64,000 nt of DNA, taken from positions 1 to 64,000 of the forward strand of contig NZ_VAUV01000005.1 of assembly GCF_005780165.1 (NCBI RefSeq), read 5' to 3'. The stretch comes from Phragmitibacter flavus. Lineage in GTDB: Bacteria; Verrucomicrobiota; Verrucomicrobiia; Verrucomicrobiales; Verrucomicrobiaceae. Shown here piece after piece: positions 40,751 to 53,758 of the stretch; the first letter of the stretch is position 1, and each line of letters starts with the position of its first letter. The translations under genes were made by a program, and so were the position numbers. Under the pieces are notes generated by a model. It worked only from the letters and a program-made list of their open reading frames with translations, did not search any database and had not been told where the DNA came from.

Positions 40751-40769
40751 GTGGTAAATGGTTTACCAC
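40751..40769. promoter_or_regulatory. Perfect 8-3-8 palindrome, candidate enhancer/operator
   Basis: GTGGTAAATGGTTTACCAC has 8-bp perfect arms around TGG; the arms extend to 11 with one mismatch. It lies about 135 bp upstream of the sigma-54 start site and 88 bp before the divergent NtrC-type gene. A half-site CAAGTGGT is at 40708-40715. Confidence 0.55.
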
Positions 40770-40856
40770 TTGCATGTGGGGATGGAGTGGCGAGGGTGGC
40801 AGATTGACCGTTTCGGGGGCATGCGCTGGCTTTCTGGACGGTTTTCTGATTTGGCC

Positions 40857-42278
40857 ATGAAATTGAAGGCACGAATTTTGATCATTGATGCATCGGAACA
40901 TGATGCAAAGGTCGCGGCTGACGCGTTGCGTGAAGTGGGGGCGGAGGTGGAGGTGGCTGAGGATGGAGAAGAGGGCTTGGAGATGGCGTTGAAGGAGCCT
41001 TTTGATGCGGTGATCACCGAGTATCGATTGCCGGGGGTTGGGGGGTTGCAGGTGATTGCGGCGTTGCATGTGAGAAAACCGCGTTTGCCGGTGGTGCTGA
41101 CGACGGGGATGCGGGACGGGGATGTGGCGATCCGGGCGATCAAGGGCGGGGCGTATGACTTTTTACCGAAGCCGCTGGATGTGGAGGAGTTGCGCAGTGT
41201 GGTGGATGAGGCGGTGAGCGCGGCGCGGCAGATGGCGAAGCCGGTGGAAATCGGCAAGGTGAAGCAGGAGTCGGATTCGCTGATCGGGAAGAGCCGGGCA
41301 ATGGCGCGGGTGTATCGGGAGCTGGCGAAGATGGCGTCGACGCCGGTGACGGTGTTGATTCGGGGCGATACGGGGACGGGGAAGGAGTTGATTGCGCGGG
41401 CGTTGTATCAGCATGGGCATCGGGCGCACAAGCCGTTCATTGCGGTGAACTGTGCAGCGATTCCGGAGCATTTGCTGGAGAGTGAGTTGTTTGGTCACGA
41501 GAAGGGGGCGTTTACGGGGGCGGTGTCGACGCGGATTGGCCGATTCGAACAGGCGCATCATGCGACGTTGTTTTTGGATGAGATTGGGGACATGGACATG
41601 ACGTTGCAGGCGAAGCTGTTGCGGGTGTTGCAGGAGCGGCGGATTCAACGGGTGGGGGGACGTGAGGACATCCCGGTGGATGTGCGCTTCATTGCGGCGA
41701 CGCATCGCAATTTGGAGGAGATGATTCGCAAGGGGGAGTTCCGTGAGGATTTGTATTACCGGCTGAATGTGGCGACGATCACGTTGCCGCCGTTGCGGGA
41801 GCGGACGGGGGATGTGCCGCTGTTGGTGGATTATTTTCTGGCGCGTTATGCGGAAGATTTTGGTCAGGACAAGGCGTCGATTGCGACGCAGGCGGTGGAG
41901 TATTTGGAGCGTCAGCCCTGGCCGGGAAATGTGCGTCAGCTGCAGAATATTTTGCGCAAGGCGCTGCTGAAGAAGCGCGGATACACCATCATGGAGGATG
42001 ACCTGCGCGAGCTGCTGGCGGAGTCTTCAGCGCCGGTATTTCAGGGAGGGGGCGAGTCGTTTGCGGAGGTGACGCGCAAGGTGTTGCAGCAGGCGATGGA
42101 TGGCGAGATTCAGGGGGCCTATGCGGAGATGCAGCGGTTGATGGAGCAGGAGCTTTTGGGGGCGGCGATTGAGTTATCGCATGGCAACAAGGCGAAGGCG
42201 GCGCGGTGGCTGGGATTGTCGAGGCTGACGCTGCGGGAGAAGTTGCAGCAGTATGGGATCGATAGGACGAAGGACTAA
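40857..42278 (+). CDS. NtrC-type sigma-54 activator with pseudo-receiver
   Basis: From the ATG at 40857 (MKLKARILIIDASEHD) the 473-residue protein has a receiver domain (1-120), a sigma-54 AAA+ domain (about 140-370; Walker A GDTGTGKE and the sigma-54 contact loop GAFTGA are intact) and a Fis-type helix-turn-helix at the C terminus (NKAKAARWLGLSRLTLREKL). The receiver is unusual: the phospho-accepting Asp is replaced by Glu55 (ITEYRLPG) and one of the two acidic-pocket Asp residues by Ala (IIDAS), while Thr82/83 and Lys105 remain. It may therefore be active without phosphorylation. It is divergent from the P-II operon, which has a sigma-54 promoter. No kinase gene is adjacent on the same strand. 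Confidence 0.88.
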   Translation: MKLKARILIIDASEHDAKVAADALREVGAEVEVAEDGEEGLEMALKEPFDAVITEYRLPGVGGLQVIAALHVRKPRLPVVLTTGMRDGDVAIRAIKGGAYDFLPKPLDVEELRSVVDEAVSAARQMAKPVEIGKVKQESDSLIGKSRAMARVYRELAKMASTPVTVLIRGDTGTGKELIARALYQHGHRAHKPFIAVNCAAIPEHLLESELFGHEKGAFTGAVSTRIGRFEQAHHATLFLDEIGDMDMTLQAKLLRVLQERRIQRVGGREDIPVDVRFIAATHRNLEEMIRKGEFREDLYYRLNVATITLPPLRERTGDVPLLVDYFLARYAEDFGQDKASIATQAVEYLERQPWPGNVRQLQNILRKALLKKRGYTIMEDDLRELLAESSAPVFQGGGESFAEVTRKVLQQAMDGEIQGAYAEMQRLMEQELLGAAIELSHGNKAKAARWLGLSRLTLREKLQQYGIDRTKD

Positions 42279-42282
42279 GATT

Positions 42283-42912
42283 TCAGGCGTCGAGATGGAT
42301 GATGCCACGGCGGACGGCGATGATGGCGGCCTGGGTGCGGTCGGCCACGTTGAGTTTGGCGAGGGTGTTGGAGATGTGAAGTTTGACGGTGGCTTCGGAC
42401 ATGTGCAGGCGGGCGGCGATTTCCTTGTTGCTGAAGCCGGCGACGATGTGGCGGAGGGCCTGGAGTTCGCGCGGGGTGAGGTTGTCGCGGGTTTGGCGGG
42501 CGGCGAGTTTGGCGGCGATGGCGGCGGGGAAGTAGGTGCCGCCGGTGTGGACGACGCGGATGGCTTCGAGCAGTTCTTCGATTTCGGCGGATTTGGAGAC
42601 ATAACCCGAGGCACCGGCCTGAACGGCGCGCCAGATGTCTTCTTCGCCTTCAAAGATGGAGAGCAGGACGATGCGTGCATCGGGAAATTCGGCGCGCAAC
42701 ATGGCGGTGGATTCCGCGCCGTCGGGGCCTGGGATTCTGAAGTCCATGGTGACGACGTCGGGTTGATGTTCGCGATAAAAATGCAGGGCCTGGGTGCCGT
42801 TGCTGGCTTCGCCGATGAGGTTGAAATCGCGTTCAGCGGCGATGGCTTCGGCGAGGCCGAGGCGCATCATGGCGTGGTCGTCGACGATGAGGATGCGGAT
42901 TTTTCGCTTCAT
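42283..42912 (-). CDS. NarL/FixJ-type response regulator
   Basis: The 209-residue protein has a normal receiver (ILIVDDH, phospho-acceptor Asp in VVTMDFRIPG, Ser in VLLSIFEG, Lys in YVSKSAEI) and a LuxR-type HTH (LTPRELQALRHIVAGFSNKEIAARLHMSEATVKLHIS, shown here only by its ends LTPRELQAL and ATVKLHIS). It overlaps the histidine kinase gene by ATGA, so the two form one two-component system. It converges with the NtrC-type gene (4-bp gap). The 24-bp element upstream of the kinase gene is a candidate target. Confidence 0.92.
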   Translation of the reverse strand: MKRKIRILIVDDHAMMRLGLAEAIAAERDFNLIGEASNGTQALHFYREHQPDVVTMDFRIPGPDGAESTAMLRAEFPDARIVLLSIFEGEEDIWRAVQAGASGYVSKSAEIEELLEAIRVVHTGGTYFPAAIAAKLAARQTRDNLTPRELQALRHIVAGFSNKEIAARLHMSEATVKLHISNTLAKLNVADRTQAAIIAVRRGIIHLDA

Positions 42913-45017
42913 GGTTTGAAGGTGGCGGGTTGGCTGGGGCGGCGGGCGGAGGCGGCGGGAACAATGATGCGGATGGTGGTGCCTTTGCCGGGAGTGGAGT
43001 CGATGGTGAGGGTGGCGTGCAGTTTGTTGCTGCGTTCGCGCATGCCGAGGAGGCCGAAGTGACCGCGAGGGGGGGACTGGGCGGGGTCGAATCCGGTTCC
43101 GTCATCGCGGATTTCTAGGGTGATGGTGTCGGGTTCAAACTGAAGGGTGACCTGGATGATTTTGGGTGAGGCGTGGCGTGAGGCGTTGACGACGGCTTCG
43201 TGGGCGATGCGCAGCAGGTGGATTTCGGCGGGACCGGTGAGGGGGTAGGGCTGGCCTTGGGATTGCAGGCTGAAATGGGCTCCGAGTTCGTTGACGGTGG
43301 GGGTGAGGAGTTCTTCGAGGGCGCCGTGAAGGCCGCGGACCTCGAGCGCGGCGGAGCGGAGGTCGCGGATGGAGGTGCGGGCTTCTTCGCGGCAGTGGCG
43401 CAGCATTTGTTCGGCGAGGGAGAGTGACTGGCCGGCCTGGTCGGGGGCGCTGAGCATGCGTTGCCGGGCGTTGCGCAACTGGATGGAGAGGCCGGCGAGT
43501 TCTTGTTCGATGGTGTCATGGAGTTCACGGGCGATGCGCTGGCGTTCATCCTTGACGGCGGCGCGTTCGATCTGGTCGCGGATGGTTTTGGTTTGTTCGC
43601 TGACGCGCCGACGCAGGAGGGACGCCCAGGTGAAGAAGGCGAGGGCGACGGCGGCGATGATGGCGAGGGCCCAGAGCAGGCGGGGAAGGGTCCACCACGG
43701 GGGCAATTGCAGGATGGTGATGTCGTCGAGGTGGCTGAGGTGGAGTCGGAAACCGTCGATGCCCTGGCTGAAGGGGAGGGCATGGGTGGTGGTGAGTTCG
43801 CAGATGCCGACAAGTTGGATGCGGCTGCCGGCGACGAGTCGCGTGGGGGTGGTTTGGCCGGGTGGCAGGATGGCTTCGAAGAACCAGTCGCGGGCGCGGC
43901 ATTGCAGCACGGTTTCATTGCGGGTGCCGGTGCGGAGGGCCTGGAGGGTGGCTTCGACGGCGACGAGTTCGGATTGAAGAGGTGAAAGGTCCTGTCCGGC
44001 GGGGTCCATTTGTAGGGGTTGGGGGGCGAGGGCCTGACCAACGGGGGTGACGCGGGTGGCTCGCAGCACGGGGCGGAAGGGGGCGACGGCGGCGAATCCT
44101 TCGGCTTCGATGCGGGTGCCGGGGGTAAGTTGATGGGAGACGGAACGGATGAAGAGGCTGCCGCCTTCGCCGCGAATGAACAGTCCATCGGAAGAGGGAC
44201 GGGTGACGATGCCGCGAACGCGGACGCGGGTGTGCGAGTTGGAGTCGCTGCGGAGCAGTTCATTGACGGCACGCAGGGGAGCTTCGGCGGAGGGGGCGGG
44301 GGTTTCGGTGGGGACGATTTGTTCGGCGGAGGTGAGGAAAAAGTGGCGGCCCACCAACTGGCGTTGGTCGTTGAAGACGCTGCCGACGACTCCGGTGATG
44401 GTGACGGGTTGCTGCATGATGTGCGCGATGTGCTGCAGGGATTTCTCGCCGGGCGGCACCAGCAGGCGCACGGTCCAACCGGAAATCTCAGCGGTGGGGA
44501 TGATGATGTTGTCGTCGTCATCGTTGGCTCCGGTGACGATGGCGGAGACTTGGACCCATTGGCAGTCGAGGGATGGTGAGAAGAGTTCGGCGGCGTGGAT
44601 GCGCTTTGGCGTTGGGGTTGGTTGTTGGTCAAGGATGAGCCATTTTTCAGCGGCGATGATGGGGAGGAATCCGCCGGGTTGGGTGTGGCCGGTGAGGCGT
44701 AGTATGGTGCCATTGCGAATCTCAGGCTGGGCGGGCTTGGGCAGGGTGACATAGATGCCTTCGCGTCCATCGTTGAGGATGATGGTGTTCAGGCTTGGGT
44801 TGATGAAGGTGACGATGGCTTCGATTTCCACCGGCAGGTTGCGTGCGGCCTGTTCGGGAGGCAGGGCACGGACTTCGGTGATCTCGCGAAGGACCGGGGT
44901 TTGAGCGGTGGCGTTGGCGATGAGGAGCGTGAGAGGAATCAGTGTGATGAGGAGATGCCGGATTGCCCGACCAAGTTTGGTTGGTGGAAGCGTCACGTCT
45001 TCAGGTGGGTAATTCAC
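42909..45017 (-). CDS. NarX-type sensor histidine kinase with large periplasmic domain
   Basis: The start is a GTG at 45017. An N-terminal hydrophobic segment (about 20-38) is followed by about 400 periplasmic residues with repeated OB-like beta stretches (VEIEAIVTFINPSLNTI; RVRGIVTRPSSDGLFIRG), and a second membrane helix near 447-465. The HisKA_3 domain has the phospho-accepting His in RIARELHDTIEQE, and the ATPase domain has HEAVVNASRHA, RDDGTGFDP and GLLGMRERS. It phosphorylates the response regulator encoded by the overlapping downstream gene. It is divergent from the Verru_Chthon cassette, and the 24-bp palindromic element lies 32 bp upstream of its start codon. The ligand is unknown. 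Confidence 0.9.
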   Translation of the reverse strand: MNYPPEDVTLPPTKLGRAIRHLLITLIPLTLLIANATAQTPVLREITEVRALPPEQAARNLPVEIEAIVTFINPSLNTIILNDGREGIYVTLPKPAQPEIRNGTILRLTGHTQPGGFLPIIAAEKWLILDQQPTPTPKRIHAAELFSPSLDCQWVQVSAIVTGANDDDDNIIIPTAEISGWTVRLLVPPGEKSLQHIAHIMQQPVTITGVVGSVFNDQRQLVGRHFFLTSAEQIVPTETPAPSAEAPLRAVNELLRSDSNSHTRVRVRGIVTRPSSDGLFIRGEGGSLFIRSVSHQLTPGTRIEAEGFAAVAPFRPVLRATRVTPVGQALAPQPLQMDPAGQDLSPLQSELVAVEATLQALRTGTRNETVLQCRARDWFFEAILPPGQTTPTRLVAGSRIQLVGICELTTTHALPFSQGIDGFRLHLSHLDDITILQLPPWWTLPRLLWALAIIAAVALAFFTWASLLRRRVSEQTKTIRDQIERAAVKDERQRIARELHDTIEQELAGLSIQLRNARQRMLSAPDQAGQSLSLAEQMLRHCREEARTSIRDLRSAALEVRGLHGALEELLTPTVNELGAHFSLQSQGQPYPLTGPAEIHLLRIAHEAVVNASRHASPKIIQVTLQFEPDTITLEIRDDGTGFDPAQSPPRGHFGLLGMRERSNKLHATLTIDSTPGKGTTIRIIVPAASARRPSQPATFKP

Positions 45018-45048: not shown

Positions 45049-45072
45049 AGAATTAGCCATTTGGCTAGATAG
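45049..45072. promoter_or_regulatory. 24-bp palindromic element, copy 1
   Basis: The core TAGCCATTTGGCTA is a perfect 6-2-6 palindrome. The full 24 bp are identical to 51432-51455. It lies between the kinase gene (divergent, 32 bp away) and cassette gene B (32 bp before its ATG). Confidence 0.65.
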
Positions 45073-45104
45073 GCAGGGAGCGGTGAAATGGTGATAATGT
45101 GTGG

Positions 45105-45653
45105 ATGCAACGAATACAAGCACGCTCCGTTTTGGCTTTTCGCCCGACATCGATTCCGGCCAGAACCCTCAAGGGATTTACATTGGTGGAAGTGGCGTTG
45201 GCAATGGGGATTCTGTCTTTTGCATTTGTGGCCATCTTTGGCATGTTACCCATTGGATTGGATGTGTCGCGTCGAACGGTGGATGCGATGATGGTGGGGC
45301 AGATCACCCAGAAGCTGGCGAATGAGGCGCAGCAGGCCGATTTCTCGGTGTTGTCGGAAGTGACGACCAGTGAGGTGACGGGACCGTGGTATTTTGATGA
45401 TCAAGGCAATGTGGCGGAGGATGAAACATCGTCCGTTTACAAGGCGGAGGTGCATGTGAATAAAAGCGCGGTTCTGCCCGGGGGTTTGAACACGTCGAAT
45501 CTGGCGGTGGTTACTGTGTGTGTGCTGAATACGAAGTCACAGCGGATTGTTCGGAAGGATGAAGGCGATGGTGGTGGTGATGAGGCGGAGAAGTTGCTGA
45601 GTCATCCGTCGGCGATGAAGACGGCATTTTTGGTGACCGACAATGGAAGATAG
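45105..45653 (+). CDS. Verru_Chthon cassette protein B (GspI/PilV-like pseudopilin)
   Basis: From the ATG at 45105 the protein has a basic leader and a prepilin peptidase site: LKG^FTLVEVALAMGILSFAF near residue 26, with Glu at +5 and a 20-residue hydrophobic helix. The rest is a short soluble domain. The pattern and gene order identify it as Verru_Chthon cassette protein B, and by analogy with type II secretion it is the GspI/PilV-like minor pseudopilin. It is the first gene of a four-gene operon. It is processed and assembled in the inner membrane if a prepilin peptidase is encoded elsewhere. Confidence 0.85.
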   Translation: MQRIQARSVLAFRPTSIPARTLKGFTLVEVALAMGILSFAFVAIFGMLPIGLDVSRRTVDAMMVGQITQKLANEAQQADFSVLSEVTTSEVTGPWYFDDQGNVAEDETSSVYKAEVHVNKSAVLPGGLNTSNLAVVTVCVLNTKSQRIVRKDEGDGGGDEAEKLLSHPSAMKTAFLVTDNGR

Positions 45654-45657
45654 GAAG

Positions 45658-46848
45658 ATGAAAGGGGTAAGTTCCATGTTGGTCTTCAAGAAGAGGAATC
45701 GATTGATCCAGGGTTTTACTTTGGTGGAGCTACTGATCTCGGCGGGACTGCTTGCGGTGATCATGGTATTGGTTTCGCAACTTACTTTGCAGACCAGTCA
45801 GGTGTGGCGTGGGGCGGTGAACAAGATCCAGACTTTTCAAGAAGCGCGGGCGGCGTTTGAATCGATGACGAGAACGTTAAGTCAGGCGACGCTGAACACT
45901 TACTACGATTATTATGATGGCAGCAATCGTTCACGCTTGGGGTTGACTGCAACTGAGCTGGCGGGGTTTACCCCAGCAGTATACGATCGTATTTCCGACC
46001 TGCACTTCATCAGCGGGCAATCCGCTGCGTTGCTGGCGAACAGTTCTGCGGCGGTTCACACCCAGACGCATGCGGTGTTTTTTCAGGCTCCCTTGGGACG
46101 TTCGGGTTCTTATGGGGAACTGCGCAATACGTTGAACGCCTGCGGCTATTTTTTGAGTTTTGGCAGTGATGAAAGCTCGGTGCCCAAACCAGTGAAGGGG
46201 GCCCCGAGTTATGAACCGAGATACCGGTTTCGATTGATGGAAATGACCCAGCGCAGCGAGCGACTGGGAATCTACGATCCGACCACTGGCAGGAGCAGTG
46301 ACTGGTTTGTCAATCATGCCGCGACGACCAGTCGGGTGGTGGCTGAGAATGTCATCGCGCTGGTGCTTTTGCCACAATTGTCGCCTCATGATGATGCACC
46401 GGATGGCATCGGGGACGGGGTGTCGATTGCACCGCATTACAACTACAACAGTCGAGTCAGGCGGGCGGCTGCTGAGGATGTTGAATGGGCGTCAGCGTCG
46501 CCCGCGTTTCCGGCGGACCGGTTCACGATTTTTCCTGCTGGAGGCAAGCCACCTTTGTCGGCATCGCGTCATGATCAATTGCCGCCGTTGATGAAGGTGG
46601 TCATGGTGGTGATTGATGAAGCTTCGGCTCGTCGAGTTCAGGGTAACGACACCACTCCGCCAGCGGCCATTGATCTGGCGGCGACATCGCTGTTTAAGCA
46701 TGCGGTTTTGTTGAAGGATGATCTTAGGGCGGTGGAAGCAATCTGTCGTGCGGAGGCGGGAAATTTGACGGGCAATACGGTGCCGCTGACTTATCGGATC
46801 TTCACGACGGAGATCATCATGCGGGAAGCGAAATGGAGTGTGAACTGA
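45658..46848 (+). CDS. Verru_Chthon cassette protein C (GspJ/PilW-like pseudopilin)
   Basis: I use the ATG at 45658; an ATG at 45643 overlaps gene B by 11 bp, and one at 45676 is also possible. The prepilin site is QG^FTLVELLISAGLLAVIM with Glu at +5, followed by a long soluble part of about 360 residues with VWRGAVNKIQTFQEARAAFE after the helix, as in GspJ/PilW. The cassette order and length match Verru_Chthon protein C. It is co-transcribed with B, A and D. Confidence 0.85.
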   Translation: MKGVSSMLVFKKRNRLIQGFTLVELLISAGLLAVIMVLVSQLTLQTSQVWRGAVNKIQTFQEARAAFESMTRTLSQATLNTYYDYYDGSNRSRLGLTATELAGFTPAVYDRISDLHFISGQSAALLANSSAAVHTQTHAVFFQAPLGRSGSYGELRNTLNACGYFLSFGSDESSVPKPVKGAPSYEPRYRFRLMEMTQRSERLGIYDPTTGRSSDWFVNHAATTSRVVAENVIALVLLPQLSPHDDAPDGIGDGVSIAPHYNYNSRVRRAAAEDVEWASASPAFPADRFTIFPAGGKPPLSASRHDQLPPLMKVVMVVIDEASARRVQGNDTTPPAAIDLAATSLFKHAVLLKDDLRAVEAICRAEAGNLTGNTVPLTYRIFTTEIIMREAKWSVN

Positions 46849-46849
46849 T

Positions 46850-49800
46850 ATGAAAATTCTCCTGAATAAACGAACTGGCGCACTGACACGGGGCATGGCT
46901 TTGGTGATTGTGTTGCCGATGTTGGTGCTGGTCACCATTCTGGTGGTGGCATTTCTTTCGACGGTTTCCACCGAGTATCAATCGACGCAGAACCAGGTGC
47001 AGGCGGCAGATGCAAGGATCTTTGCGGACTCGGCGGTGAACCTGGTGATGTCGCAAATTCAGGATGCGACGGGTGAGCCTTCGTTGGCATGGGCGTCGCA
47101 ACCCGGGATGATTCGTTCCTTTGATGATGAAGGCAGGGCGGTGGCGGCTTACAAACTTTACTCGTCCGGAGACTTGCGCAAGGCGGGTGCCTTTGATGCT
47201 GAGGCGGAGTTGATCAGTGAAATTCCAGGTAACTGGGCTTCTCAGGAGATGCGGCATCTTTACACGGATCTGAATGCGCCGGCGTATGCGCGGCGTGGGG
47301 GAAGTTTGGTCGCGCATTTTCCGATCTTGCATCCATCGGCGGTTGGCAGTGCTTATGGTTCGCCGACGGCATTGGTAGGGGAGTTGCCGCCGGTGGAGGG
47401 ATGTTATGTGGATGGCAATCATGTCGTGCTGAAGGATGGTGTGGTTTCAGGCAATCCGTTGCCGATGCCGGTGCAATGGATTTATGTGCTGAAAGACGGC
47501 ACGCTGGCGACGATGGATCCGGCCACGTCGAGGGTCACTGGGGCGGGTGAGGTGCTCGCGGATGGAACGGTGAATCACCTGGTGGGAAGGGTGGCGTTCT
47601 GGACGGATGATGAGAGCAGCAAGGTGAACATCAACACGGCATCAGAGGGCACGTTCTGGGACCGGCCCTGGACGTCGTCACGTTCTTCTGCCACCGACGG
47701 TGATGGTTATGAGCTGTTGCTGGCCAAGCGGATGCCGGCACAAAATGAATTTCAACGTTATCCGGGGCATCCTGCCATGACGTCGTTAAGTCCCATCTTT
47801 CCGAGTTTTGCCGGGGAAACCGAGGTGGATTACAAGGCGCGCATTTATGGGATGATTCCGCGAGTGGTGGATGGGGGAAGTCGCAGTGGCACGGTGCAGA
47901 TGGGTGCAACGACGGCGTTGGTGGTTCCGGATGCGGACCGGTTGTATGCGACCGTGGATGAGTTTTTCTTCAGCGCGACCGGGTCGCCACGGCAGGAGAA
48001 CAACAAAGGTCCGCACCTTCCGTTTGTTACCGAAGACCTGGAACGTGCGCGCTTTTTTCTGACCACGGTGAGCCGTGCGCCGGAAGTGAATCTTTTCAAC
48101 AAACCAAGGATTGCCTTGTGGCCGTTGCAGGCAAATACGGCGGATGTGGACCAACCTTCCGCTGCGATTGAACGCAATGCGCAAGATCGGCTGATCGCTT
48201 TTTGTTCCACGCTGGGAAATCAAACAGGGGTGCCTAAGCCTTATTATTTTCAACGTTACAACACTTTCACTACTTCCCAAACGATGGGTTCGGCGAGCAG
48301 TCAAAGTCCGACGATGGACTGGACGGAGATACCAAGGAATCGGGACTTGTATGCCTATCTTCAGTCACTTACCAGCAGGTCTGTGCCGGGACTTGGGGGT
48401 AGTTTGCTGGATAAATATCCGCAGACCAGGGATCAGATTCTGACCCAAATGTGGGACTTCGTGCGAAGTCAGGTAAATACTTTCAGCACAGCAGGCAATC
48501 CCAGTTATTACTTTGCGCCGTTCAACCCTTCAGGCATGATCTCCGGGCAGTCGCAGGTGGTGCCTTTGAGCCTGCCCAACGGCACGCGTGGATTCGGCCG
48601 CTTTCCTACCATCACGGAAGCGGCGCTGGTGTTTTATGCGTCGAACCCGGACGATCCCAACGAGGTGCGCGCGGTGTTGATTCTTGAGCCGTTTAATCCG
48701 ACGCCGGGGCCTCCGGTTTGGTCGGCGAATGTGAGATATACAGCCAAAGGATTGGATGCGTTCAATGCAGGATCAGTGAACCTGGGTTTTCCCGCAGAGG
48801 TGAGCAATCTGGTGACTGGCAAGGATGGTCAGTCGAACGCGACGGCGCTAACCGGGTTGGAGCAGGCAACGCAATATTACAGCACCACCAGCGGCAAGTT
48901 TACGAATGCCAAAACGCTGGGACATGCGGATGAAGAATTGAACTATACGTTTTGTTCTGCGGCAATTCAGATTCCGACCGACAAATTTGATTTCAGCGGC
49001 GGGACCCTCAAGCTAGAGATAGCGCCGGGATCGAATCCATCGGCGGTGGTGCAGACGATTCAGTTGGTTTTTCCTCCGGTTGCGCGACTGCCGAAACCCA
49101 CCGTCCAGGCGAACGCGCCAACTTATGCGAATTACGACAACCGGATTGCCCGGTATGCACAGCCAAGCAATCCCAATGGACGATTTGGAATCCTTGAAGA
49201 TGGAAAGCACAATCTGCTGCCGCTGATTCTGGCCTCGGATACGGTGCGCAGTGTGGAGGCCCGTTATGCTGGTCCTGCTCGCGGTGATCTGAGGATGTTC
49301 GCGGGGTTGCCACAGGTTCCATCGAGTTACTTTGAAGGTCATGGATTGACGGACACTCCGTTGGGTGGGGCGCCTTATTCGCAAACTTTGCCGACGGCAG
49401 TCGAGGCCAAATTGGTGCATAGTTTGCGCATTGACAGTCAGACGGGTCCGGCGGACACGAGCAGTCAAAACGGTTTCTACAATGGTGCTGGCGGGAAGAG
49501 TGATCCTCGGGGAAAACTGGTGGCGTCCGCTGCTTACAACGATCCCAATCGGGGGGATAGTAAACGGCATTCGACCATTCCGGTGGTGCCTCGTGGGTTG
49601 CAAGGGGCGCTGATGGCGGACGGGGTTACGCCGGGTGATTGGGACAACGGGGTGGGGAGCATTGCGGATGGTCCCTACATCAACCCGGCGGACCAGGCCA
49701 GTGCCAACAAATCGCAATCCAGTTCGAGTCTTTATTATGCGAAGGGCGGTTATGTGAACGGTGCGGGCGTGGCGGAAAGCGGAGCTTCGTTTTCACCTAA

Positions 49801-50743
49801 CCGCCAGATAGCATCGGCAGTGGCGTTTGGGTCATTGCCCTCGGGTCTTGATCCGGGCAATCCTGATGAGGTGAAACCCTGGCAGACCTTGCTGTTTTGT
49901 CGGAATCCAGCGGGTGGGGATGCCCATCCTGGTTTTGGCAAGCCATTGGGTGCAGCGGCAACGGGGTTGGCTCCTCCGTATGCGATGGTGCCGGATCATG
50001 CCTTTCTTGATTTGTTTACGATGCCGATTGTGGAGCCTTATGCGATCAGTGAACCTTTTTCCACGGCAGGCAAGGTGAACATGAATTATCAGATGGTGCC
50101 GTTCACTTATCTGACCCGGTCAACGGCGGTCAGGGCGGTATTGAAGTCCACCCAGATCATGGCGATTCCGACCGGTGAGGGAGGACGTTACAAATTCAAT
50201 TCAAAGGACAATCCACCGCCTGACTATCGCTATCATTTGAATCTTGATGAGAGGGAAGGAACGCTGGCGGGATTTGAAAGACGTTTTGCCTCGAAGGATA
50301 TCTTCCGTTCGGCTTCGGAGATCTGCGACATTTATCTAACTCCCGGCAAGTCAGTGAACGGTGGACAGGCGGATGCTGAAGTGACTTATGATGAAATGGG
50401 GGATTGGTGGGGAGATTACCTGCTCACCGGTGACAATGTGCGCGAGCAGCCGTATGGGCACTTGTATCCGCGGCTAACGACCAAATCGAACACCTTCACG
50501 GTGCATGTGAAAGCGCAGGCGTTGAAGCAGCGTCGGACGGCGGCGGTGGATGAGTTTGTGGATGGTCTGGATGTGATCACCAGCGAGTTTAGGGGTTCGT
50601 TTGTGATTGAGCGGTATCTTGATCCAAATGCGGATTCGCTGGTGAAGGCCGACGGGAAAACGGCCACGACTGAACTGGATGATGAAGGCATGGTCGGGCC
50701 TTACAAATTTCGCATCCGCAATGTTACCCGTTTTGCTCCATGA
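46850..50743 (+). CDS. Verru_Chthon cassette protein A (giant GspK/PilX-like protein)
   Basis: The 1297-residue protein begins with a basic leader and one hydrophobic helix, GMALVIVLPMLVLVTILVVA, then STVSTEYQSTQNQVQAADAR, as in GspK/PilX, which lack the FTLVE glutamate. The motif KVNINTASEG near residue 262 matches the KxNxNTA motif of GspK. The remaining ~1000 residues are a long beta-rich, Ser/Asn/Gly-containing part unlike any GspK and about four times its length; STAGKVNMNYQMVPFTYL near 1079 is another conserved-looking segment. It matches the large A protein of the cassette. It probably caps a pseudopilus tip. One base separates its ATG from the stop codon of gene C. Confidence 0.85.
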   Translation: MKILLNKRTGALTRGMALVIVLPMLVLVTILVVAFLSTVSTEYQSTQNQVQAADARIFADSAVNLVMSQIQDATGEPSLAWASQPGMIRSFDDEGRAVAAYKLYSSGDLRKAGAFDAEAELISEIPGNWASQEMRHLYTDLNAPAYARRGGSLVAHFPILHPSAVGSAYGSPTALVGELPPVEGCYVDGNHVVLKDGVVSGNPLPMPVQWIYVLKDGTLATMDPATSRVTGAGEVLADGTVNHLVGRVAFWTDDESSKVNINTASEGTFWDRPWTSSRSSATDGDGYELLLAKRMPAQNEFQRYPGHPAMTSLSPIFPSFAGETEVDYKARIYGMIPRVVDGGSRSGTVQMGATTALVVPDADRLYATVDEFFFSATGSPRQENNKGPHLPFVTEDLERARFFLTTVSRAPEVNLFNKPRIALWPLQANTADVDQPSAAIERNAQDRLIAFCSTLGNQTGVPKPYYFQRYNTFTTSQTMGSASSQSPTMDWTEIPRNRDLYAYLQSLTSRSVPGLGGSLLDKYPQTRDQILTQMWDFVRSQVNTFSTAGNPSYYFAPFNPSGMISGQSQVVPLSLPNGTRGFGRFPTITEAALVFYASNPDDPNEVRAVLILEPFNPTPGPPVWSANVRYTAKGLDAFNAGSVNLGFPAEVSNLVTGKDGQSNATALTGLEQATQYYSTTSGKFTNAKTLGHADEELNYTFCSAAIQIPTDKFDFSGGTLKLEIAPGSNPSAVVQTIQLVFPPVARLPKPTVQANAPTYANYDNRIARYAQPSNPNGRFGILEDGKHNLLPLILASDTVRSVEARYAGPARGDLRMFAGLPQVPSSYFEGHGLTDTPLGGAPYSQTLPTAVEAKLVHSLRIDSQTGPADTSSQNGFYNGAGGKSDPRGKLVASAAYNDPNRGDSKRHSTIPVVPRGLQGALMADGVTPGDWDNGVGSIADGPYINPADQASANKSQSSSSLYYAKGGYVNGAGVAESGASFSPNRQIASAVAFGSLPSGLDPGNPDEVKPWQTLLFCRNPAGGDAHPGFGKPLGAAATGLAPPYAMVPDHAFLDLFTMPIVEPYAISEPFSTAGKVNMNYQMVPFTYLTRSTAVRAVLKSTQIMAIPTGEGGRYKFNSKDNPPPDYRYHLNLDEREGTLAGFERRFASKDIFRSASEICDIYLTPGKSVNGGQADAEVTYDEMGDWWGDYLLTGDNVREQPYGHLYPRLTTKSNTFTVHVKAQALKQRRTAAVDEFVDGLDVITSEFRGSFVIERYLDPNADSLVKADGKTATTELDDEGMVGPYKFRIRNVTRFAP

Positions 50744-51399
50744 ATGTCCGACTTAAAGACTGTCGTTTGCTGTGTTATGGATTTTCCCTGGTGGAGATGC
50801 TGATGGTTTGCGGCATTTTTGCGGTGCTGCTGGCTTTGGTAACGCCAGCGGCGATTTCGTTGATCAGTGCTTCGCGGATGAACAGCGCGGTGTCGATGTT
50901 GAATGATGAATTGAACCTGGCGCGTCAGGCGGCGATGACGGAGAATCGTGATGTTGAAGTGCGATTTTACCGGGTGGCTTCGAATGTGGGAGGGGAGGGT
51001 TTTCAGTATCGGGCGTTTCGAACGTTGCGGCAGCAACAGAAGGGTGACGGTTCGCAACTGGTGGCTGACGGGCCGGTGAAGCGGTTGCCTGGATCGGTAA
51101 TTCTTTCGGCCAATGCAGAACATTCGACACTGCTGGATTATGCCAATCCCAACCGGTCGGGTCTGTCATCTGGTCAGGAGGATCTGCCGGGGGAACGTTT
51201 GCCTTCAGATTATGTGGGGCTGGTATTTAAGCCGGATGGAGGAACGAGTTTAAACCCTGTGGATCTGCCGGAAGGGAACTGGTTTCTCACCTTGTTTCAG
51301 GATCAGGACAAGAGAGGGCCGGAATCGGGATTACCGGCGAATTTTTGCACGTTGCAGATCGAACCGATCACGGGGCGTTCGAGAGTTTATCGGCCTTGA
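50740..51399 (+). CDS. Verru_Chthon cassette protein D (GspH/FimT-like pseudopilin)
   Basis: The 219-residue protein has the prepilin site YG^FSLVEMLMVCGIFAVLLAL with Glu at +5, followed by MNSAVSMLNDELNLARQAAM as in GspH/FimT. It overlaps gene A by ATGA. It is the last gene of the operon; the second copy of the 24-bp element lies 33 bp past its stop codon. With B, C and A it makes a complete H-I-J-K-like minor pseudopilin set. Confidence 0.86.
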   Translation: MNVRLKDCRLLCYGFSLVEMLMVCGIFAVLLALVTPAAISLISASRMNSAVSMLNDELNLARQAAMTENRDVEVRFYRVASNVGGEGFQYRAFRTLRQQQKGDGSQLVADGPVKRLPGSVILSANAEHSTLLDYANPNRSGLSSGQEDLPGERLPSDYVGLVFKPDGGTSLNPVDLPEGNWFLTLFQDQDKRGPESGLPANFCTLQIEPITGRSRVYRP

Positions 51400-51431
51400 G
51401 GTTTTTATGGTGAAGCCTGTTTGCGACTGGA

Positions 51432-51455
51432 AGAATTAGCCATTTGGCTAGATAG
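51432..51455. promoter_or_regulatory. 24-bp palindromic element, copy 2
   Basis: It is identical over 24 bp to 45049-45072, with core TAGCCATTTGGCTA. After it, both copies continue with a similar CAG..GGTGAA(A)TGG. It lies 84 bp upstream of the GH5-type gene. Confidence 0.65.
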
Positions 51456-51538
51456 TCAGTGGTGAATGGTTCTTCTAACATGGATGACATGAGCGCACAT
51501 CGGGGTGTTATAGTTACTGTTATTAATTTTTTCTTTTT

Positions 51539-53758
51539 ATGATGAAAAACGCTGCAACTAGATGGATGAAACGATGCATGTTCCAAGTTCTGCTGGCGGC
51601 GTCTTTGCTGGGTGCGGTTGCCAATGCTTATGGGGCGCCGGGGGTTGGGTTGGTGCCGAATGGGGATTTTGAGAAGGGCAATGAGGCGGGCGACTGGCCG
51701 GTTGGGTGGGCGAAACCGAAGGAGGGTGGTTCGTGGCAGACGGAAGGGGAAAACCGTTTCATCCGGTTGAGCAGCACTTCGCCGGGAGCGATGATCATGA
51801 TTTATCAGGAGATTCCGATTCCGGCGGAGGTGAAAGCGATTGAGGTGAAGTGGCGGCATCGGATCACGGGATTAAAGAAGGGGACGAGTGACTGGTTTGA
51901 CGCGCGCATCATGATGGAGTTTTTGGATGGGCAGCGGGCCAAGGTGTCGCCGGGGCCGAAGGTGCCGTCTTTCCGCAAGGATGTGCCGGAGTGGACGGAG
52001 GCGAGTGTGCAGTTTTTGGTGTCGGAGGGGGCGACGATGTTGAAGTTTATGCCGGCGCTTTTTCAGGTGGAGTCTGGGGTTTGGGATATTGATGACATGA
52101 GCATCAGTGCGGTGGACCCCGAGCCGTTGCGGGTGGAGGCGGCGGAGCGTGCGGCCAAGGCGGCGGCGGCGATGGAGAAGAGGCTTGCGGGCAAACGGGC
52201 GAAGGCGTCGGCGGCGTTGCAGCAGCATGGAGATTTGATTGTGGACGGCGGGTATACGAAGCCGCCCGGGAAGAAGGCGAAAAATCTTGTAGATGAAGAG
52301 GGGAACCGTTATTTGCGTTTGGAGAGCAAGGAGCCGGGCAAGATGGTGCTGGATTACCGAGAGATTGATTTGCCTGAGGGGGTGGAGGCGTTGTCGCTGG
52401 GGTGGAAACAGCGGATCAGTGATTTAAAGAAGGGGGAGAAGTCGTGGTATGATGCGCGGATTCTTTTGGAGTTTAAGGGGGCGGATGGCAAGGTGATGAA
52501 GGGGAAGCCAGCGGCACCATATTCGCAGCGCAATACGGAGGGTTGGGTGGAGAGGTCGACGGAGTTTTTGGTGCCGAAAGAGGCGGCATCGGTGGTGATC
52601 ATGCCGGCGTTGTTTCATGTGAAGGCGGGTAGGTTTGAGCTGGATGATTTTTCGTTAAAGCCGGTGGATCCGGCGGTGTTGGTGGCGAAGCAGAAGGAGC
52701 GGGAGGAGAGGGTGGCGAAGTCGAAGGTGCCGGTGGAGGCGGATGATCAGACGAAGTGGCCGCCGATGTTGAAGGTGAAGGGGAACCGGCTGGTGACGGT
52801 GGATGGCGGGAAAGAGGTGTGGTTGCAGGGGATGAATGTGGCGAGTCTGGAATGGAGTGTGCGTGGGGAGCAGGTTCACAAGTCGATTGTGGTGGGGCTT
52901 GAGCAGTGGAAGGGCAATGTGATCCGTCTGCCGATCAAGGAGGATTATTGGTTTGGCAAGGACATGGGGGATGAGGGGGAGGCGTATCGCGAGGTGGTGG
53001 ATCAGGCGGTGACGCTGGCGGCGAACCGGGGATGTTATCTGGTGCTGGATTTGCATCGTTATCGCGCGCCGAAGAAGGAACATCTGGCGTTTTGGGCAGA
53101 TGCGGCGGCGCGGTATAAGGATCATCCGGCGGTGATTTTTGATTTGTTGAATGAGCCGCACGGGATCTCGTGGGAGGTGTGGCGTAATGGGGGTTTTGTG
53201 GAGGAAAGAAAGAAGGAGGGGGATGAGGATGCGTTTTTGTCGGCGGAGGAGAAGTTGCACAACAAGCGTGGGTTTGAGTCGCCGGGAATGCAGGCGATGC
53301 TGGATGCGGTGCGTGCGACGGGTGCGAAGAATTTGGTGGTGGTGGGGGGGCTGGATTATGCGTATCAGCTGGATGGGATTGTGGACGGGTTTGGTTTAAA
53401 GGACGAAGAGGGCAACGGGATCATTTATGCGTGCCATATTTACCCGTGGAAGAAGGGGTGGCAGAAGTATCTGCTGGACGCGGCGGCGTTGCATCCGATC
53501 CTGTTGGGGGAGGTGGGGGCGGATGCAAAGAAGATGGATTTCATGCCGCATGAGATGCAGGAGGATGCGGAGACATGGGTGCCGGACATTTTGGGGTTGA
53601 TTCAGGAGCATCGTTTGAACTGGACGGCTTGGTGTTTTCATCCGAGTGCGAGTCCGCGGATGTTGCTGAATTGGGATTATGAACCGACGCCAGTGTGGGG
53701 CGCGCCTGCGAAGGAGGCGATGTCGGGGAAGGCGTTTCCGATGGGGAAACTGCGCTGA
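51539..53758 (+). CDS. Exported GH5-type glycoside hydrolase with duplicated N-terminal domain
   Basis: A signal peptide (MMKNAATRWMKRCMFQVLLAASL..., cut near AYG-AP) is followed by two similar ~150-residue beta-sandwich units (about 40-195 and 230-385) separated by an Ala/Lys-rich helix. Both have YDAR/FDAR, a W and PALF. The C-terminal ~330 residues are a GH5-like barrel with acid/base Glu in LLNEPHG, nucleophile Glu in ILLGEVGAD and YACHIYPW. It probably hydrolyses a beta-glycan outside the cell. It lies downstream of the Verru_Chthon cassette behind a copy of the same 24-bp element. The leader is T-rich with no Shine-Dalgarno. Confidence 0.83.
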   Translation: MMKNAATRWMKRCMFQVLLAASLLGAVANAYGAPGVGLVPNGDFEKGNEAGDWPVGWAKPKEGGSWQTEGENRFIRLSSTSPGAMIMIYQEIPIPAEVKAIEVKWRHRITGLKKGTSDWFDARIMMEFLDGQRAKVSPGPKVPSFRKDVPEWTEASVQFLVSEGATMLKFMPALFQVESGVWDIDDMSISAVDPEPLRVEAAERAAKAAAAMEKRLAGKRAKASAALQQHGDLIVDGGYTKPPGKKAKNLVDEEGNRYLRLESKEPGKMVLDYREIDLPEGVEALSLGWKQRISDLKKGEKSWYDARILLEFKGADGKVMKGKPAAPYSQRNTEGWVERSTEFLVPKEAASVVIMPALFHVKAGRFELDDFSLKPVDPAVLVAKQKEREERVAKSKVPVEADDQTKWPPMLKVKGNRLVTVDGGKEVWLQGMNVASLEWSVRGEQVHKSIVVGLEQWKGNVIRLPIKEDYWFGKDMGDEGEAYREVVDQAVTLAANRGCYLVLDLHRYRAPKKEHLAFWADAAARYKDHPAVIFDLLNEPHGISWEVWRNGGFVEERKKEGDEDAFLSAEEKLHNKRGFESPGMQAMLDAVRATGAKNLVVVGGLDYAYQLDGIVDGFGLKDEEGNGIIYACHIYPWKKGWQKYLLDAAALHPILLGEVGADAKKMDFMPHEMQEDAETWVPDILGLIQEHRLNWTAWCFHPSASPRMLLNWDYEPTPVWGAPAKEAMSGKAFPMGKLR

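Follow-up and report, generated by a model that had tools for sequence, protein, structure and literature searches.

The window analyzed here was a 64,000-nucleotide stretch of the Phragmitibacter flavus genome (contig NZ_VAUV01000005.1, positions 1 to 64,000). Between 45099 and 51399, it harbors a Verru_Chthon cassette, i.e. four adjacent genes in the order B-C-A-D, all of which scored above the curated cut-offs of their respective TIGR families. A two-gene unit on the minus strand diverges from this cassette; it encodes a membrane sensor histidine kinase (42909..45017; Pfam HisKA_3 and HATPase_c) and a LuxR/NarL-type response regulator (42283..42912; a receiver and a GerE helix-turn-helix). 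Downstream of the cassette, on the plus strand, is a gene for a GH5 glycosidase (51539..53758; 739 amino acids (aa)). A 24-bp element, AGAATTAGCCATTTGGCTAGATAG, occurs in two identical plus-strand copies, one upstream of cassette gene B (45049-45072) and the other upstream of the GH5 gene (51432-51455). From the sequence comparisons described below, we consider it probable (ca. 0.8) that the adjacent regulator uses this element as its operator and that the element serves the promoters of both the cassette and the GH5 gene.

The identity of the two copies over 24 bp had been noticed in an earlier, sequence-only reading of this DNA, as had the 32-bp distance from the first copy to the divergent kinase gene; both were borne out (the annotated kinase start is at 45017). 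That reading also described the element as a perfect palindrome, which it is not. The dyad, TAGCCA-TT-TGGCTA (its core may also be written TTAGCCATTTGGCTAG), consists of 6-base arms on either side of a TT that is not itself palindromic; thus, its center is asymmetric, and the palindrome is imperfect over its 14 bases. The match between the copies runs past the 24 bases into a tail that reads TAGgCAG in copy 1 and TAGtCAG in copy 2. The candidate operators, each comprising the hyphenated dyad TTAGCC-ATTT-GGCTAG and this tail, were taken to span 45049..45076 and 51432..51459 (both on the plus strand). By chance, a stretch of 64 kb would be expected to contain such an exact pair of 24-mers ca. 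1.5e-5 times, so chance fails as an account of the repeat. The 14-mer TAGCCATTTGGCTA was found at two exact places in the window, where 0.12 matches were expected at ≤2 mismatches. When the 20-mer TTAGCCATTTGGCTAGATAG was searched at ≤3 mismatches, the same two places were the only ones in the 5.91-Mb genome, and the reversed control yielded 0; stray copies away from the two promoters, many of which would by the earlier reading's own criterion have spoken against its proposal, were therefore not encountered.

The locus was also located in other genera. In three Verrucomicrobium genomes, it is the same, with identities of 78% for the regulator, 62-63% for the kinase, 45-69% for the cassette proteins and ca. 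61% for the GH5 enzyme, and the element precedes both cassette gene B and the GH5 gene. In Chthoniobacter flavus, the gene order is changed: a 1452-aa PATR protein and the GH5 enzyme are encoded divergently from the kinase, and the cassette is convergent on the regulator. The element nonetheless stands upstream of both transcription units with its orientation kept, and hence it tracks promoters rather than cassette ends. Across Verrucomicrobium and C. flavus, regulator orthologues are 78-81% identical and kinase orthologues 56-63%. With the window genome counted, the element is conserved in 5 genomes, at six non-redundant sites having the consensus ..aga.TTAGCCattTGgCTAG.TAG.CaG. Across these six sites, identity is 79-96% in the motif vs. 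17-36% in the flanks. These comparisons bear on the notion that the 24-mers have no regulatory role and are mere direct repeats, stemming from an insertion, an att site or a cassette duplication. In the window, the two identical repeats do bracket exactly the four-gene cassette. In C. flavus, however, they do not bound it, as one copy lies before the passenger/GH5 unit and the other before cassette gene B; moreover, the element has been kept at promoters across genera while the flanks have been lost, and the eight surrounding genes that were scanned gave no family match to an integrase or transposase. A mobile-element flank or att repeat was accordingly rejected, and we deem any such origin very improbable.

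With a relaxed 23-mer, the locus sites were the only ones detected in the genomes of P. flavus and C. flavus, and each Verrucomicrobium genome had the locus sites and one extra. In a set of 384 genomes from the class, such a locus carried the motif only where the orthologous kinase/regulator pair was present. The nearest other pairs (38-42% identical for the kinase and 46-56% for the regulator) had neither a TAGCC-GGCTA dyad nor an adjoining cassette, and their recognition helices, where read, were different. A cassette locus on contig 31 of another genome (G002), whose regulator is ca. 50% identical, likewise had no shared dyad that we could find. Motif matches in other members of the family (loci L003-L009 and L013) were rejected as chance occurrences, since no homologue of the locus adjoined them. 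The extra Verrucomicrobium site reads TTATCCATTTGkCTAGsTCGACA in two of the genomes (L015:1460-1530 and L122:1500-1525) and precedes a gene for a ca. 470-aa protein with a weak PA14 match; this gene is a possible further member of the regulon in Verrucomicrobium.

The conserved tail, TAGnCA, shares 4 or 5 of its 6 bases with TTGACA (3 at the C. flavus passenger site), and all six sites have a -10-like hexamer at a distance of 17 or 18 bp: GATAAT, TAACAT, CATACT, TAATTT, CATTTT and CAACAT. The summed -35/-10 match across the six sites was equalled in 5e-5 of shuffles. In the window, the putative hexamers (plus strand) are TAGGCA (45070..45075; 4/6 to TTGACA) and GATAAT (45093..45098) for copy 1, and TAGTCA (51453..51458) and TAACAT (51476..51481) for copy 2, both with 17-bp spacers. 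The predicted transcript starts, near 45105 and 51488, are downstream of the respective elements. If TAGnCA is read as a weak -35 box, the dyad center would fall at ca. -44.5. In E. coli, the 7-2-7 site through which NarL activates napF is at -40 to -49, and the one used at yeaR is at -38 to -47 (PMC4549865); because of this likeness, activation by the regulator is the more likely mode at both promoters. The same operator and regulator could instead repress, with the dyad beside the -35 box blocking polymerase until a signal removes or alters the regulator. The site does touch the -35 region, and NarL itself represses at frdA; however, the repressing frdA site is near the transcript start, at -4/+6 (PMC4549865), and a dyad centered at ca. 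-44.5 next to a weak -35 box has the geometry of an activator site, as at napF and yeaR. We thus regard repression as unlikely.

We also considered a function at the RNA level, in which the palindrome would form a hairpin in the 5' leader, a riboswitch or a terminator. Copy 2 folds unusually well (z of -3.5), but the two copies have different best folds, neither of these pairs the TAGCC and GGCTA arms with each other, no Rfam match was found, and the predicted starts place the element outside the transcripts. An RNA element or a known RNA family was rejected on the differing folds, the unpaired arms and the lack of an Rfam match, and it would be surprising indeed if this explanation were correct. 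A generic scan between cassette gene D and the GH5 gene located neither a terminator nor a strong consensus promoter. Around copy 2 (51428-51478), there is an inverted repeat, GAAGAATTAGCCATT...AATGGTTCTTC, that gives the strong RNA fold and is not shared by copy 1.

The regulator scored above the cut-offs of both Pfam Response_reg and GerE, placing it among the NarL/FixJ (LuxR-type) regulators, and its best sequence matches in the PDB were VraR and NarL. Its gene overlaps that of the HisKA_3-type kinase by 4 bp. The recognition helix, SEATVKLHISNTL, is common to the regulators of the window, the three Verrucomicrobium genomes and C. flavus. Different dyads were found at three further cassette loci, each of which possesses a kinase/LuxR-type regulator pair of its own; there, the dyad occurs at two or three promoters of the locus and is essentially absent from the rest of the genome. 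On P. flavus contig C21 (locus L092), TAGAACATTCGTTCGATGGT is upstream of cassette gene B, and TAGAACATCCGTTCAATGGT is upstream of a gene for a PATR/PEP-CTERM passenger; this dyad (TAGAACATTCGTTCGA) occupies only these two places in the genome at ≤3 mismatches. A related regulator in G002 (65% identical) has the same dyad, here before the gene of a protein of 2176 aa that contains fn3 and HYR domains. At a Verrucomicrobium locus (L098), TGTRGCGA-NTNC-TCGYYACA dyads precede a GH16 gene, cassette gene A and a PATR passenger gene; at ≤2 mismatches, they were found in these three places alone, and the same three were found in two relatives of that genome. On P. flavus contig C8 (L081), TRGGTG-SAAA-CACYYA occurs before the kinase gene and again where the frame containing cassette gene A begins (two exact places only, and one more at 1 mismatch). 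All three sister dyads fit TAGnnn-4-nnnCTA, a NarL-like 7-2-7 (6-4-6) form from which single copies deviate slightly. The corresponding recognition helices are STSTVRAHLHxIY (C21 and G002), STHTVNSH[IL]RRIY and a near variant (the L098 group), and SAKTVENHRLNIC (C8). Thus, in the sequences compared, recognition helix and dyad covary: they are shared inside dyad groups and different between them. Elsewhere (L178:1380-6255), a kinase/regulator pair of the L098 group was found with a similar dyad directly before the gene of a GH16 plus planctomycete-cytochrome-type protein; no cassette adjoins this pair.

Because the case that the adjacent regulator binds the element is a comparative one, the element might be the operator of another regulator encoded elsewhere, the adjacent kinase/regulator pair being merely its target. 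A sigma-54-dependent, NtrC-type response regulator is in fact encoded nearby (40758-42278), tail to tail with the LuxR-type regulator gene. This gene is not beside the locus in Verrucomicrobium, however, and, as noted above, the dyad changes from group to group together with the recognition helix of the adjacent regulator and is missing near the closest homologues of that regulator outside the group; we consider control by a different regulator quite improbable. The earlier proposal that the NarL-type regulator controls itself, the cassette and the glycosidase through the element accordingly gains support from the comparative tests, i.e. from the lack of stray copies, the conservation of the element at both promoters in another genus, the C. 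flavus rearrangement, the co-occurrence with an orthologous regulator and the recurrence of the same layout with other regulator/dyad pairs.

Several points weigh against assigning the element to the adjacent regulator. Owing to their close relationship, the three Verrucomicrobium genomes are worth about one, so independent lineages number three: Verrucomicrobium, Chthoniobacter and the genus of the window. Most cassettes lack an adjoining regulator pair, and private operators would therefore hold for a subset. The -35/-10 reading is confined to the window dyad group and is not evident at the sister dyads, and a generic promoter scan returned nothing above threshold at copy 2. When loci were scanned blindly for dyads that recur inside them, the window ranked first (20/20 letters) and C21 fourth, but the scan has little discriminating power: it also raised two loci that have no regulator, and C8 alone was at the ca. 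5% level of the cross-locus null. (The scan scored the window itself as lacking a regulator, as an antisense open frame is longer there.) The dyads at the two regulator-less cassette loci (L138:3180 and 14339; L143:13712 and 14323) may serve a regulator encoded at a distance, or they may be repeats of no relevance here.

If the adjacent regulator does act through the element, events at the locus would proceed as follows. The divergent kinase would phosphorylate the response regulator, a dimer of which would bind the dyad abutting the poor -35 box TAGnCA and recruit sigma-70 RNA polymerase to the promoters of the B-C-A-D cassette and the GH5 gene. Since copy 1 is located inside the short divergent interval, it probably tunes the expression of the kinase and the regulator as well, i.e. 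the pair would be autoregulated. The resulting GspI-J-K-H-like minor pseudopilus tip would then adapt the type II secretion machine of the cell to the co-expressed enzyme or passenger.

The arrangement resembles the NarL 7-2-7 sites of napF and yeaR in combining a LuxR-type regulator, heptamer-like inverted arms around a short center and a probable activator site at ca. -44.5. It differs in detail. When the window dyad is placed in the 7-2-7 frame (TTAGCCA-TT-TGGCTAG), its TAG is shifted inward by one base per side; its TAG/CTA outer ends are thus two bases closer together than the TAC/GTA of NarL or the TAG/CTA of the sister dyads. Unlike that of NarL, the proposed regulon consists of one locus and is not global, and the sensor part of the kinase is different. 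The likeness to VraR/LiaR rests on protein sequence, VraR being the best match of the regulator among solved structures. VraR/LiaR are Firmicute envelope-stress systems, and we know of no pseudopilin or glycosidase target for them. The device proposed here, in which a LuxR-type regulator acts at a local operator, is of a known kind, but its setting is undescribed: it would provide private switches for GspH-I-J-K-like tip cassettes and their exported partners.

The cassette proteins (all encoded on the plus strand) were compared to known pseudopilins using AlphaFold models built from cassette alignments and scored by VIA-align (B and C) or hidden-Markov-model (HMM) matches (A and D). Protein B (TIGR02598; 45099..45653, start codon uncertain) scored 64.3 vs. 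a cut-off of 51.4; the best match of its model was XcpV/EpsI (GspI), with a Z of 9.0 and a root-mean-square deviation of 2.4 over 88 aligned residues, and the first match other than GspI had a Z of 4.6. Protein C (TIGR02599; 45643..46848) scored 283.1 vs. 256.5, and its model best matched XcpW/EpsJ/GspJ and the type IV-like pilin TTHA1219 (Z of ca. 11; next unrelated match, 2.0). Foldseek alone returned no significant match for either model. Protein A (TIGR02600; 46850..50743) scored 1360 bits vs. 332.3; residues 14-87, at its N-terminus, matched T2SS_GspK at 2.4e-10, with a score of 40.4 that is below the curated cut-off of 130. Protein D (TIGR02596; 50740..51399) scored 175.6 vs. 70 (1.2e-51) and matched gspH at 1.9e-5, again with a score (24.7) below the curated cut-off (80). 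Given these lower scores, A and D were described as working like GspK and GspH and were not filed as Gsp proteins proper. Taken together, the model matches of B and C and the HMM matches of A and D indicate that B-C-A-D looks like the GspI-J-K-H set of minor pseudopilins in fold and sequence; its role in secretion is a putative one. As in the type II secretion system, the four prepilin-type genes are adjacent; unlike in that system, there are many cassettes per genome (ca. 14 in P. flavus and more in Verrucomicrobium, e.g. 38 first-look candidates in G067), A and C are much larger, and many cassettes lie beside the gene of their own exported protein. The cassette thus has the four adjacent families of other Verru_Chthon cassettes, from descriptions of which it differs in being tied to a dedicated two-component system. 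Our literature searches retrieved no paper naming Verru_Chthon and no regulation or secretion role for the cassette, and pseudopilin papers under the stem Verrucomicrobi did not appear to address these cassettes.

The GH5 enzyme (Pfam Cellulase, 2.9e-28) has a signal-peptide-like N-terminus and is a putative client of the pseudopilus of this cassette; we would give its export by this particular tip only slightly less than an even chance. The Verrucomicrobium orthologue is fused behind PATR/TIGR02601 repeats. The presumed clients form a fusion/fission series, with the PATR passenger and GH5 separate in C. flavus (L116:3296-9933), joined in one fusion in Verrucomicrobium, and GH5 alone in the window. 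The long neighbors of the cassettes examined were mostly TIGR02601/PATR beta-strand-repeat proteins, some with PEP-CTERM ends. In Verruconatronum alginivorum, a pseudopilin was induced with alginate-degradation clusters, and one pulG-like type II pseudopilin has 67 homologues in that genome (PMC13274419). The link between a pseudopilin and polysaccharide-degrading genes is a point in common; the pseudopilin family is a different one, and the available portion of that report names neither an operator nor a dedicated two-component system. Within that portion, the data are consistent with substrate-linked pseudopilins and are silent on operators.

More broadly, and at somewhat less than even odds, Verrucomicrobiota may possess many interchangeable tip cassettes, each of which would serve a single exported passenger or glycosidase. 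Some of them would be insulated from the others by private kinase/regulator/operator sets that co-duplicate and have their dyads re-specified, resulting in substrate-specific type II channels that are turned on singly. The Verru_Chthon cassettes are abundant and conserved, and no function described for them was found in the literature; the connection to Gsp proteins and private regulators suggests a testable role, in which tailored pseudopilus tips would be made together with the enzyme or passenger that they serve. Several regulator/dyad pairs in one bacterial group also constitute a natural set for the study of helix-DNA specificity in LuxR-type regulators, and they are candidate orthogonal switches in polysaccharide-degrading Verrucomicrobiota.

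Five long GspE/PilB-like ATPases are encoded in the P. flavus genome, with scores of 552-604 bits vs. a gspE cut-off of 630, none being above it. One of the five genes (G000:C5:72931-74316) is located just beyond the window, ca. 19 kb downstream of the GH5 gene.

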